A stretch of 42,149 nucleotides of DNA from contig SCQD01000119.1 of the NCBI GenBank assembly GCA_004299145.1, forward strand, positions 1 to 42,149, read 5' to 3'. The stretch's first letter is position 1, and every line of letters starts with the position of its first letter. The translations under genes were made by a program, and so were the position numbers. The notes below the pieces were generated by a model. It made no database searches and was not told where the DNA came from. It saw nothing but the letters and a program-made list of their open reading frames with translations. This stretch comes from Methylococcaceae bacterium. Its GTDB lineage: Bacteria; Pseudomonadota; Gammaproteobacteria; Methylococcales; Methylococcaceae. Positions 11,834 to 41,390 of the stretch are shown one piece after another.

Positions 11834-12015
11834 GGTTCCCAACCTCCGGGTTGGGAACCCGGCCCGGGAAGCTCCCGCTTCCCGAGTGGGGAAGGGAAAC
11901 TGGAGTCTTCAAGGGAGCGAGAACTGGGCTTGAACAAAGTTTTTTTGCGGTCGCACAGCGAGTATCGGGAAGCAGGAGCTTCCCTAACCGCGTTCCCAAG
12001 CAGAGCTTGGGAACG
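11834..12015. repeat. Inverted pair of BIME/REP-like composite palindromes
   Basis: Forward ggttcccaacctccgggttgggaacccggcccgggaagctcccgcttcccg; reverse cgggaagcaggagcttccctaaccgcgttcccaagcagagcttgggaacg. Confidence 0.85.
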
Positions 12016-12048
12016 AGACGAAACCAACGTCACTTAGTCAATCCGCTA

Positions 12049-12097
12049 CGCGACGCAGAGCGTCGCCGGCTGCGTTCCCACGCAGAGCGTGGGAACG
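12049..12097. repeat. Second BIME subtype (two stem-loops)
   Basis: cgcgacgcagagcgtcgccggctgcgttcccacgcagagcgtgggaacg; the reverse complement matches the element inside the acylase gene at 39427. Confidence 0.85.
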
Positions 12098-12112
12098 ATA
12101 GCCAGGAACGGC

Positions 12113-34765: not shown

Positions 34766-34809
34766 GGGGTGCGGGCCTGGGAAAAATCATTCGTTGCGCT
34801 CGTTGCGCT

Positions 34810-34943
34810 CGTTCCCAAGCTCCTGCTTGGGAACGCGGCCGGGGAAGCTTCGGCTTCCCCGGCCGACACGGCGCCGCCGCTCGCCGAACAGACGCGAAGC
34901 CGGAGCTTCGCGGGAGTGGGTTCCCAAGCGGAGCTTGGGAACC
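34810..34943. repeat. Inverted pair of BIME/REP-like composite palindromes
   Basis: Forward cgttcccaagctcctgcttgggaacgcggccggggaagcttcggcttcccc; reverse gacgcgaagccggagcttcgcgggagtgggttcccaagcggagcttgggaacc. Confidence 0.88.
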
Positions 34944-36596: not shown

Positions 36597-36636
36597 ACAG
36601 CGGCGCCGGACGTCAGCGGGTTTCGGCTCGTCGGCT

Positions 36637-36859
36637 CGTTCCCAAGCTCCGCTTGGGAACGCAGTCCGGGAAGCTCCGGCTTCCCGAACCCAGTGCCAGG
36701 GGAAGTGTCTGGCTTGCCGTCCATGGACACCTGGATACCGGCTTCCATGCCGCATGACGTGCGCGCTGAAGTGCTTTGCCGATCAGGTGCCGGTTTCCCA
36801 TTCCGGCTCTGGAAGCCGGAGCTTCCAGAGCCGGGTTCCCAACCAGGAGGTTGGGAACC
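36637..36859. repeat. Inverted pair of BIME/REP-like composite palindromes
   Basis: cgttcccaagctccgcttgggaacgcagtccgggaagctccggcttcccg ... cggctctggaagccggagcttccagagccgggttcccaaccaggaggttgggaacc. Confidence 0.88.
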
Positions 36860-36883
36860 AGCTAAAACCAGCGGACCAGCCCC

Positions 36884-38524
36884 CTATACGATTTCAAACA
36901 ACCGGCCCTCTTCCAGGCGCAAACACCGGTCGGCCATCTGGAAATAAGCGTCGTCATGGGTAATCACGACGACGGTTTTGCCCTTGGCCTTGAGGGCGGG
37001 CAGAATTTCGCCATAGAAAATGTTTTTGAATACCGGGTCCTGATCGGCGGCCCATTCGTCGAACACGTAAAAAGGCTTGTCCTCCAGATACGCGACCAGT
37101 AATGCCAAACGCTTGCGCTGGCCTTGCGATAAATCGAGCGTGGAAAATACTCCGTTGTCGATTTGCACCTTGTGTTCCAGCTGCAAACGGGTCAGATAAG
37201 CGCGCGCTTCAGCATCCAATTCAGGACTGTCGAAACCGAGCAGACTGTCGAATAAATAAAAGTCGGAAAACACCGCGGCAAATTGATTCCGATACTGTTC
37301 CAGGCCGGCCGGGCCGACCCGTCGCCCGTCCAGGCGGATTTCGCCCTGTTCGGGCAGGTACAGGCCGACCAGCAACAGCGCCAGGGTGGTCTTGCCGCTG
37401 CCGTTGCCGCCGACCAGGAATACCAGTTCGCCGGGTTGCAGCGTCAGGTCTATGGGACCGACGCAGAAGCGCCTGTCATCGCCGCCGCCGGCATAGTGGT
37501 GCAGCACGCCGGCCAACTCCAGCGCCGGCGTTCGCGGCAGCGCCGCCCGGGCGGCCGTGGTTCCGGGCGTCGGCTCGCCGGTCGCGCCGCCGAGCGCCTG
37601 GATTTTCTTGAGCGCGATGCCGGCCCGGCCAAAAGCCGGGATGCCTTCCACCAGGATTTCCAGCGGGGCCATCATGTACAGAATGGTCAGGCAATACCCC
37701 CGCAATACCTCCGCAGTCAGTTCAACATGAACCAGGTTGAGTGTATTGACCTCACCCAGGTAAGCCGGCAGGATAAACAGCAGGCTGCCGATCAGAACGT
37801 AAAACAGGCTGTTGCCCCAATTGGCGGCAAAAATAAACAACCGCATACCGTTCAGGTAATGGCGGCGATAATGCAGCGCGCTGGCTTCCAGGCATTCCGT
37901 CAAAAATGCGGCGCGGCGCGCGTCGTTCAACTTGAGTTCCTTGATGCCCTGCGTGAGGCTGCGCATGTGGCCGTACAAAGCATCGTCGCATTCCCGCGCC
38001 ATGCGCAAACCGCCCATGGCCCGTCCCTGAATCAAGCGATAACTGGACAGGCCCAGGATAATCGTCGCGACCACCAGCACCAGCAGCGACCCGGACAGCC
38101 AGCCCAAATAGATAAAGCAACCGGCGATGATGGCGCTGTTGACGCACATCACCGGCAACCAGCGGAAAGCTTCCGCCAGGGCGGCGACGTCCTGGGTCAG
38201 GCAGGCCAAAATGCGCGGCGGCCCCAACTCCTGCAAACGGTTCAGGGAAGCCGCCAGAATTTGCCGGCTGAGCGCCACGCGCAAACGGAAGATGGCATTC
38301 TGGCTGAGCCGCACCAGCAGGAAAGCCGAAACCACCCGCGACAGCACCATCAACAGGCACAGGCCCCAGAAAAACCACGCCAAATCGGCGAACGCGCCGG
38401 GGGCTTGATTCAGCGCCAGATTAATCGTGGCGATCAGACCGGCGCCGCTCAAACCGCTCAGCAATCCCGTCAGGATCGACACCGACAGCAGCCGGCGCGA
38501 GTTTTGCAACAGCAAGCGCATCAT
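36884..38524 (-). CDS. Cyclic-peptide-export-type ABC transporter (fused TM-ATPase, PvdE/SyrD-like)
   Basis: Six-TM domain, VGGNGSGKTTLALLLVGLYLPEQGEIRLDG Walker A, LSQGQRKRLALLVAYLEDKPFYVFDEWAADQDPVFKNIFY. Start ATG overlaps the upstream acylase stop (ATGA). Confidence 0.9.
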   Translation of the reverse strand: MMRLLLQNSRRLLSVSILTGLLSGLSGAGLIATINLALNQAPGAFADLAWFFWGLCLLMVLSRVVSAFLLVRLSQNAIFRLRVALSRQILAASLNRLQELGPPRILACLTQDVAALAEAFRWLPVMCVNSAIIAGCFIYLGWLSGSLLVLVVATIILGLSSYRLIQGRAMGGLRMARECDDALYGHMRSLTQGIKELKLNDARRAAFLTECLEASALHYRRHYLNGMRLFIFAANWGNSLFYVLIGSLLFILPAYLGEVNTLNLVHVELTAEVLRGYCLTILYMMAPLEILVEGIPAFGRAGIALKKIQALGGATGEPTPGTTAARAALPRTPALELAGVLHHYAGGGDDRRFCVGPIDLTLQPGELVFLVGGNGSGKTTLALLLVGLYLPEQGEIRLDGRRVGPAGLEQYRNQFAAVFSDFYLFDSLLGFDSPELDAEARAYLTRLQLEHKVQIDNGVFSTLDLSQGQRKRLALLVAYLEDKPFYVFDEWAADQDPVFKNIFYGEILPALKAKGKTVVVITHDDAYFQMADRCLRLEEGRLFEIV

Positions 38525-41232
38525 GGTTGTTCCCCGGGAGCGCGGCCATCCTGGCCGCACTGCGGCCAGGATGGCTGCGGCCCCAGGGGCGGGCAGGATG
38601 CCCGCACTCCCGGGATGAACGTCATCTTGTGCAAAGCCGGGCCGGCACGCAGCAGCAGGGCGCGGCCATGCGCCCAGGCCGCCTGCTGGTCGCGGTAATG
38701 GGGCGACAAAGGGTGACCGGACTGGCCGCCCGGCATGTGCAAAATGCCTGCCGACTCGTGCCCCGGCGCCACCACCAGCCGCTCGTCGGCACCGACCCTT
38801 TGCTCGTGCAGGCGCACGCACTCGGCGCAGCCGGCCAGAGACTCCGGCGGCATGTCCAACCAGGCCCCGAGTGCCGGCAGCGCCGCCGAGAGCGGATGGG
38901 CGATCAGCGCCTGGCTGGTTTCCCCCCAAACCGGCGCGGCGTGTGCGGCGGCTTGCAGCAGCAGGCCACGCAGCCAGGCGCGCCAGTCGGGAAAGCGCGC
39001 GGCAGCGGGCAGCAATTCCGGCGCTTGCGTTTCGAGCAGCTGCTGCAAAGGCAGGTCCAGCGTGGGCCAAAAATAGCTGAACCGCGCATCGAGCCGACGG
39101 CATTTTTCCAGGTAAGGGGGAATGACCGCCTCGATCAGGCGCCGGCGAAACTCCACCAGGATCGCGAGCCCGGCGGAATCAGGTTCCGCCCGGCCGTCCC
39201 AGGCGGCCAGGTTTGCTTTGATGCGCTGCTCCGCCGCAGCGTCGGCATCCAGCAAGGACAGGGCGAGTTGCTGGTAATAGCGATAAAACCCGGCGCGCGT
39301 GTCCAGCTGCAGCGCGAAAAGGTCGTGCTCGTCCATGGCTTGCATTTCGCCCAGCCGTTCGGCGATGCGAGAGGCGCGGTAGCCGTTGTCGAAGCCGTGG
39401 CCGATGACGTGGGGATAATAGGCCATCGTTCCCACGCTCCGCGTGGGAACGCATCCAGCGACGCTCCGCGTCGCGTCAACATCGGCAAAGGTGGTTTGTG
39501 ATTGCGCAGAGGTGATTTGCAAAAAACAACCTCCCCAGCGGTTGAGGAATACAGAATCGCCGCGAAGCGGTATCTTCAAGGTTTCCTGAGAATGTCCCGG
39601 ACTGCATTCCATAAGCCTGAGTAATTCCGCTTCGCGGTGGTTTTCCCACACCGAGCGTAATGGGAACGCTGCGGAAAACATTACGGGACGCTGAGCGTCC
39701 CAGACTGCATTCCCACGCGGAGCGTGGGAACGATGACAAGCCGCAGCTGCATCGTGGGTCACCATGGGCTGGTTGGCATTGACGATAAACCCTTGCGGCG
39801 GATCGACCCGGCGCGGCAGTTCGCCGGGCGGGATATAGCCGTCCCAGCCGCGCGTACCGTCCGCCCAGGAGCGGCTGGTCAGACCGTCCAGCCCGAAGCG
39901 GCGCGGGATTTTTCCGGTATAGCTCCAGCCGATATGCCCCCCGGCGTCGGCGACCAGGGCATTCAGCGGCGGGCTGCCGGCCCGGTTGAACACGGCCAGC
40001 GCCGCCGGTACGTCGCCGGCAAGGTCCAGGTCGAGCAGCCCGAGGTCGGTCGCCGCCGGGTCCAGCAGCGTCCAGTTGACCGCGACCGGCTTGCCGAGCA
40101 GCGTTTCCGCCGCCACCGGCCCCCACTGCGTGGTGCGCACCGGCACCGCCACGTCGGCGCCGCCGCGCACCCGTATCGTTTCGACGCGCTCGCCGAAGCG
40201 GCGATAGCCTTGCGGCGTCAGATAACGCCCGGCGTCCGCCGCATCGAGTTCCAGCGTCACCAGGTCGATGAAATCGCCCTGTATGCTGGTGAAACCCCAG
40301 GCGATCCGGCCATTGGAACCGGCGATGAGCAGCGGCACGCCGGGCAGGGTGAAACCGGTGAGTTCCACTGGCCCGTAGCGCAGTTCCGCCCGGTACCACA
40401 GGTTGGGAACGCCCAGCGTCAGGTGCATGTCGTTGGCGAGCATGGCGCGGCCATGGCGGGTCCGGCCGGGACCGACGACCCAGGCGTTGGAACCTTGCGG
40501 CGCCGGCGCCGGGGCGATCAGACCGGGCTGACCCGCAACGCCGGCGTCCGTCAACAGCGCGGCCAGCTCGGCCTTGGGCAGGACGGTGGCGGACGATGGA
40601 TGAGCAGCGGCCGGCGTAAAAAAGGCGTAGACCCGCGGCGGCAAGGCGGCCGCCATGATCGTCGCCATGCGTTCCGCATCGGCGGACCAGGTCAGTTCTT
40701 CGCCCATGGCCAACACCACCAGCAGGCTGTCTTCGGGACGCCAGGCGGAAAAACCGTAAGCCAGCGCCAAAAATTCCGGCGGCAGCGCCGTCATGGCCGC
40801 CACGGCCTGGTTCACGCCGGCCGCATACGCCGCCAGCGCTTGCTTTTGCTCGTCGGGCAGCCGTTGCAGGATGCGCCGCGCCACGTCTTCGAAACCCATG
40901 AGCCGGTGGCGGCGGTCGGATGCCGCCAGAGCGGCGCCCAGCACTTCGGCCAGACGTCCCGCCGTCCGCCGGCGCAGCAGGTCCATCTGGAACAGCCGCT
41001 CGCGCGCCGTGACGAAGCCCAGCACGCGGTAAGCATCATCCCGATCGTGCGCCAGAATTTTGGGAATGCCCAGGGCGTCGAATTCCACTTGCGCCTGCCG
41101 ATCGAGTCCCGGCAGGGCATGGACGCCGTCGAGATCGGGCAGCGAAGCGCGCAATGCCCACGACAGCGCCAGGGCCGCCGCCGACACGGCGGCGAGGGTG
41201 GAGAGTGCAAAAACGCGCCGGCTATATTTCAT
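38521..41232 (-). CDS. Penicillin-acylase-family Ntn hydrolase with an in-frame 306-bp repeat insertion
   Basis: MKYSRRVFALSTLAAVSAAALALSWALRAS (signal); LGIPKILAHDRDDAYRVLGFVTARERLFQMDLLRRRTAGRLAEVLG; GSNAWVVG (autocatalytic Ser); YPHVIGHGFDNGYRASRI. Confidence 0.9.
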   Translation of the reverse strand: MKYSRRVFALSTLAAVSAAALALSWALRASLPDLDGVHALPGLDRQAQVEFDALGIPKILAHDRDDAYRVLGFVTARERLFQMDLLRRRTAGRLAEVLGAALAASDRRHRLMGFEDVARRILQRLPDEQKQALAAYAAGVNQAVAAMTALPPEFLALAYGFSAWRPEDSLLVVLAMGEELTWSADAERMATIMAAALPPRVYAFFTPAAAHPSSATVLPKAELAALLTDAGVAGQPGLIAPAPAPQGSNAWVVGPGRTRHGRAMLANDMHLTLGVPNLWYRAELRYGPVELTGFTLPGVPLLIAGSNGRIAWGFTSIQGDFIDLVTLELDAADAGRYLTPQGYRRFGERVETIRVRGGADVAVPVRTTQWGPVAAETLLGKPVAVNWTLLDPAATDLGLLDLDLAGDVPAALAVFNRAGSPPLNALVADAGGHIGWSYTGKIPRRFGLDGLTSRSWADGTRGWDGYIPPGELPRRVDPPQGFIVNANQPMVTHDAAAACHRSHAPRGNAVWDAQRPVMFSAAFPLRSVWENHREAELLRLMECSPGHSQETLKIPLRGDSVFLNRWGGCFLQITSAQSQTTFADVDATRSVAGCVPTRSVGTMAYYPHVIGHGFDNGYRASRIAERLGEMQAMDEHDLFALQLDTRAGFYRYYQQLALSLLDADAAAEQRIKANLAAWDGRAEPDSAGLAILVEFRRRLIEAVIPPYLEKCRRLDARFSYFWPTLDLPLQQLLETQAPELLPAAARFPDWRAWLRGLLLQAAAHAAPVWGETSQALIAHPLSAALPALGAWLDMPPESLAGCAECVRLHEQRVGADERLVVAPGHESAGILHMPGGQSGHPLSPHYRDQQAAWAHGRALLLRAGPALHKMTFIPGVRASCPPLGPQPSWPQCGQDGRAPGEQP
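39427..39732. repeat. Inverted BIME pair (306 bp) embedded in-frame in the acylase gene
   Basis: cgttcccacgctccgcgtgggaacgcatccagcgacgctccgcgtcgcg ... gggacgctgagcgtcccagactgcattcccacgcggagcgtgggaacg; the core holds a hemH-type repeat at 39612-39646. Confidence 0.9.
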
Positions 41233-41270
41233 CGTCGCCTTCTGTTCGTAGCCGATTCGAAGCGCAGCTT

Positions 41271-41390
41271 GTAGGGTGGGCACCGCCCACCAAAGGCCCG
41301 CCGATCAAGATAAGTTTCATGGTTGCCATTGCTGCGCTCCAATCAAGGCGTTTTGCCTGTCGAGGTGGTGGTGGGCGATGCCCACCCTAC
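41271..41390. mobile_element. Small MITE-like element with 22-bp imperfect terminal inverted repeats
   Basis: gtagggtgggcaccgcccacca / tggtgggcgatgcccaccctac, 21/22 inverted match, 120 bp total. Confidence 0.8.

Follow-up and report, generated by a model that had tools for sequence, protein, structure and literature searches.

An ATCG-tagged REP-like palindromic element lies in frame between active-site residues of a Methylococcaceae penicillin acylase

Introduction

Rickettsia supplies the best-known cases of palindromic repeats read in frame; such repeats may be junk that is tolerated or may open a way to new protein segments. Inverted palindromes also occur in pairs in the BIMEs of E. coli, which are regarded as extragenic. 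Rickettsia palindromic elements (RPEs) are found in frame in many unrelated genes, encode a conserved peptide, and are thought to be compatible with the fold of the protein that receives them (reviewed in PMC10969869). REP dimers tagged GTAG or CGTC are mostly intergenic, with some copies in frame within real genes (Di Nocera et al. 2013, PMC3733652), where the insertions that they encode reach up to 43–82 aa in clusters. In RAYT-mobilised REPINs, an inverted REP pair acts as the unit.

Here we describe a palindromic repeat in a 42,149-nt stretch of a Methylococcaceae bacterium genome (contig SCQD01000119.1, assembly GCA_004299145.1; hereafter the window). The repeat shares short palindromes, head-to-head dimers, variable spacers, and some genic in-frame copies with GTAG/CGTC REPs, but has a 52-nt two-hairpin unit and an encoded segment of about 104 aa, and lacks a GTAG or CGTC end tag, its units being tagged ATCG (CTCG and CTGG in related subfamilies). 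Its host genes are largely those for PKS, NRPS, and acylase proteins together with lnt, rather than for DNA repair; the GTTCCCA motif is absent from the main text of the report on GTAG/CGTC REPs (PMC3733652). As with RPEs, in-frame copies occupy unrelated real genes, about ten in this case, although RPEs measure ~150 bp and reside in the small genomes of obligate intracellular Rickettsia, while the pairs described here span 83–541 nt in a 4.6-Mb genome; this likeness is one of behaviour, and we claim no sequence relation. REPINs differ in their tag, in the lack here of a RAYT gene flanked by the repeat, and in the mostly unrelated spacers of the present pairs. The initial annotation named the element a BIME, a name we have replaced since the repeat forms a different, ATCG-tagged family; E. 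coli BIMEs differ in both sequence and organism. By analogy with intragenic REPs and Rickettsia RPEs, the repeat is best described as a new REP-like sequence family that displays a phenomenon already known, though seldom documented.

Results

Structure of the element in the acylase gene

Two mutually inverted palindromes lie at 39427–39451 and about 39708–39732 within an open minus-strand frame, and extend into arms of 53 nt each (39424–39476 and 39683–39735) that are 87% complementary and 206 nt apart. Across the window the core pattern matches 16 times when strands are counted separately, at 8 sites, whereas shuffles give an expectation of 0.00. Together with the PF01804 match of the surrounding frame (Table 1), these results bear out the original observation of an inverted pair inside the beta-chain region of an acylase. 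The boundaries first proposed, 39427–39732, had suggested a length of 306 nt and hence a multiple of three; genome copies instead place the ends at ATCG...CGAT, and the resulting element length is not divisible by three. The frame is kept by the net change relative to relatives, 333 nt (111 aa), which exceeds the element length by ~23 nt, as the two flanks (25 + 7 nt) are together longer than in relatives by that amount.

Table 1 Features of the palindromic element, the acylase gene, and further genes with in-frame copies. Plain coordinates are window positions.
Feature	Location	Strand	Remarks
Entire palindromic element, ATCG...CGAT	39425..39734	.	310 nt; ends set by comparing genome copies
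REP-like unit 1	39425..39476	+	52 nt, two hairpins, 5' ATCG tag
REP-like unit 2	39683..39734	-	52 nt, inverted copy
Spacer	39477..39682	.	206 nt; internal inverted repeat 39555-39573 / 39624-39642
Recurrent spacer module	39594..39668	+	78-84% identity at five other genome loci
Extra flank, V508 to element	39735..39759	-	25 nt, reads THDAAAAC; other side 7 nt
Penicillin acylase (Ntn-hydrolase) gene	38521..41283	-	920 codons, element in frame; PF01804 E=3e-147
Ser265	40489..40491	-	invariant in 34-sequence alignment; beta-chain N-terminal nucleophile by homology
Asn504	39772..39774	-	invariant in 34-sequence alignment
Arg636 of GYR	39376..39378	-	invariant in 34-sequence alignment
NRPS adenylation domain, in-frame repeat	L120		
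FAAL-NRPS, in-frame repeat	L124		
Additional NRPS, in-frame repeat	L202		
PKS, in-frame repeat, one to several copies per contig	L171, L196 (two), L197		contigs C141, C291, C297
Hydrogenase/complex-I-like protein, in-frame repeat	L185		
Filamentous haemagglutinin-type (FHA) protein, in-frame repeat	L146		
LuxR/AAA regulator, in-frame repeat	L126		
Apolipoprotein N-acyltransferase (lnt), in-frame repeat	L201:3687-5732 (G000:C330:9386-11431)		

The two units are up to 98% identical to other copies in the genome, so the insertion may be young. The spacer is largely unique, apart from the recurrent module, which is shared with loci on contigs C336, C207, C16, C285, and C113. When the 310-nt block is read in all six frames, the acylase frame alone is free of stops. 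The insert RNA can form a single long and very stable hairpin (z=-8.3). At 39531–39549 the sense strand of the insert has a weak terminator-like hairpin with a run of U, which could reduce read-through transcription.

The acylase gene and its product

The open frame encodes 920 aa with zero stops across the insert. Both its Pfam assignment and the Foldseek matches of its predicted structure identify the product as an acylase; the top PDB sequence match is the D-succinylase 7ea4, and the score against the PvdQ equivalog NF051460 is 40.7 bits, below the cut-off of 950. The catalytic Ser, Asn, and Arg are all retained (S265, N504, and R636); counted from the invariant Ser265, the latter two correspond in position to AsnB241 and ArgB263 in the penicillin acylase of E. 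coli. Downstream of the acylase are encoded a cyclic-peptide export ABC transporter and a diaminobutyrate transaminase, a gene context which suggests a peptide natural-product locus. Just upstream of the acylase gene, at 41269–41390, the window holds an inverted GTAG-type repeat pair, GTAGGGTGGGCACCGCCCACC ... GGTGGTGGTGGGCGATGCCCACCCTAC.

Relatives lack the insert and the predicted fold is retained

The distance from Asn504 to Arg636 is 22–24 residues in all 33 relatives of a 34-sequence alignment, compared with 133 in the window, and an equivalent segment of about 100 aa, which would have argued against an insertion, was found in none of them. Acylases from 30 other genomes of the family or order align up to residue ~508 and resume at ~623, almost gapless on their own side. 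Judged by these alignments, the palindromic element is an insertion between two invariant active-site residues; the initial placement near the substrate-binding fold was right as to the beta chain and is now narrowed to the interval between N504 and R636. The closest acylase in the genome collection (61%; CAJPFO010000048.1) lies on a contig titled 'Myxococcaceae bacterium', which is possibly mislabelled or a contaminant. Another relative's acylase (L010, genome G003) carries an in-frame TAG just past the insert position (YP*IIGQ), and is apparently a pseudogene or the result of a sequencing error.

The structure of the product was predicted with AlphaFold2 (mean pLDDT 82, pTM 0.82). The model recovers the fold of 7ea4/7eby, with D-succinylase and cephalosporin acylases as top Foldseek matches, and leaves residues 512–620 disordered (pLDDT below 50) with the remaining acylase fold intact. 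Disturbance of the active site is possible, given that the pLDDT falls to about 69 (block mean) near N504 and that the insert separates two invariant residues.

A dispersed repeat family

The host genome is a repeat-rich 4.6-Mb draft of 353 contigs. Among the loci retrieved from it we counted 147 palindromes at about 116 loci, with 47 inverted head-to-head pairs; exact core copies number 58 + 63. Strand-wise matches to the palindrome amount to 136/143 in this genome and 11/9 in a same-genus genome, and the palindrome is absent from 30 of the 41 genomes searched. The loci are mostly intergenic, with only about a tenth in genes. Short dispersed palindromes and head-to-head pairing are general features of REP/REPIN-like repeats, and both are present here. 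Three genes for Y1_Tnp (RAYT-type) proteins are present in the genome, and the palindrome was not found in the ~2-kb locus of any of them; we therefore do not claim RAYT mobilisation of the repeat. Palindromes of the related subfamilies CTCG-TTCCCAAGC and CTGG-TTCCCAACC occur in the window at 11836–12099, 34808–34943, and 36636–36860, partly intermixed with the ATCG type.

In-frame copies in other genes

To identify host genes, open reading frames that span an element and are codon-like on either side of it were compared with the Pfam and NCBIfam profiles. About ten further genes with family support hold the repeat in frame (Table 1), a recurrence that is not visible from the window alone; spanning frames at L139, L131, L129, L136, L165, and L191 had no family support and were left out of this count. 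The lnt gene is single copy in the genome, and its 203-nt element (68 aa, in frame) divides the LNT_N profile at position 95/100. The lnt of the same-genus genome has no element and is 79% identical in DNA up to within 1 nt of it. A sibling of this element on contig C123 encodes a peptide 71% identical. In the same-genus genome, a PKS-like frame (L223) also holds the repeat in frame.

No target-site duplication is evident flanking the acylase insertion or those in other genes. The net gain in lnt falls ~17 nt below the element length, and this difference, together with the +23 nt in the acylase, points to an unclean cut-and-paste or to flanks altered later.

Reading-frame bias

Readable 5' units in supported genes use the hydrophilic frame +2 (xRSHAPRGNA) in 10 of 11 cases; we calculate a probability of about 4e-4 that at least 10 of 11 would share a frame, whichever it is. 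This choice is not accounted for by stop codons, as free-standing pairs are open in each of the three frames (35, 49, and 42% for +0, +1, and +2). At 9 of the 11 loci where codon-like sequence meets both edges on one strand, the two sides are in phase, one of the nine having an internal stop. A codon-phase preference of the insertion process itself could mimic selection on frame. Most units are open in all six frames (96 of 127), as are 27% of shuffles and, among 52-mers drawn at random from the genome, 13.5%; since the copies share descent, this is weak evidence of selection. A bias of pair length toward 1 mod 3, seen in the first ~28 pairs, was dropped once 47 were counted (21/17/9, p about 0.09).

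Discussion

We consider it likely that the repeat is a selfish REP-like element whose surviving insertions in genes are those that are in frame, soluble, and located in loops, and that the acylase is still made. In the proposed scenario, a high-copy mobile element of head-to-head 52-nt two-hairpin units would have inserted in the acylase gene; the element would spread as a selfish repeat through a transposase acting in trans, genes would be struck occasionally, and purifying selection would retain only insertions that keep the frame open, whose hydrophilic, disordered peptide falls in a loop, and that still allow the protein to fold. As selection would keep only open-frame, fold-compatible insertions, the acylase is most likely still produced, with a predicted disordered loop of ~109 residues, and is probably at least partly active. 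Weak terminator-like sites in the sense direction and the stable RNA hairpin inside the insert weigh against this reading.

An unlikely alternative is that the insertion is a recent inactivating one and the acylase a pseudogene, open only by luck or youth: two invariant active-site residues are split, the near-identity of the units to other copies fits a young event, and with one open frame in six, an unselected in-frame continuation would be expected roughly 1 time in 18, a chance too large to neglect. The 920 codons are otherwise free of stops and frameshifts and keep all three catalytic residues, however, and the genome-wide bias toward in-phase, same-frame copies, along with the insertion in a single-copy lnt, argues for general tolerance. 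An assembly artefact, with repeats joining unrelated pieces, might be suspected in so fragmented and repeat-rich a draft, but is highly improbable given that the acylase halves are in correct order and frame around a block of only 310 nt with a largely unique spacer, and that about ten independent genes show the same pattern.

At the other extreme, the ~100-aa peptide may have been selected for a new role such as substrate gating or partner binding. Its position beside the active site, the nearby exporter and transaminase genes, and the presence of the same peptide in several NRPS/PKS genes would be in keeping with domestication; yet the insert is predicted to be disordered, its ends are the translated standard repeat consensus that is also present in unrelated proteins, and no sign of element-specific adaptation was seen, making this very unlikely. 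Removal or skipping of the insert at the RNA or ribosome level, as an intron or by translational bypassing, is hardly credible: the long hairpin might favour it, but an Rfam search of the insert gave zero matches and thus no known intron class, and neither the open frame nor the frame bias would be needed if the segment were skipped.

In the host genome, a single element family is thus fused naturally to about ten proteins, which belong to unrelated families that have been well studied; for at least two of these hosts, the acylase and lnt, relatives with an empty site are available for comparison. The inserts in a single-copy lnt and between Ntn-hydrolase active-site residues make the question of tolerance testable at the bench. 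Such inserts could also pass for domains or linkers in the annotation of PKS and NRPS genes. More speculatively, and with rather low confidence, the openness of most units in six frames and the single hydrophilic frame used in genes may mark these repeats as genomic parasites compatible with coding, which invade working enzymes, including lnt and PKS/NRPS, at tolerable cost; if so, they would be a steady source of new disordered protein loops.
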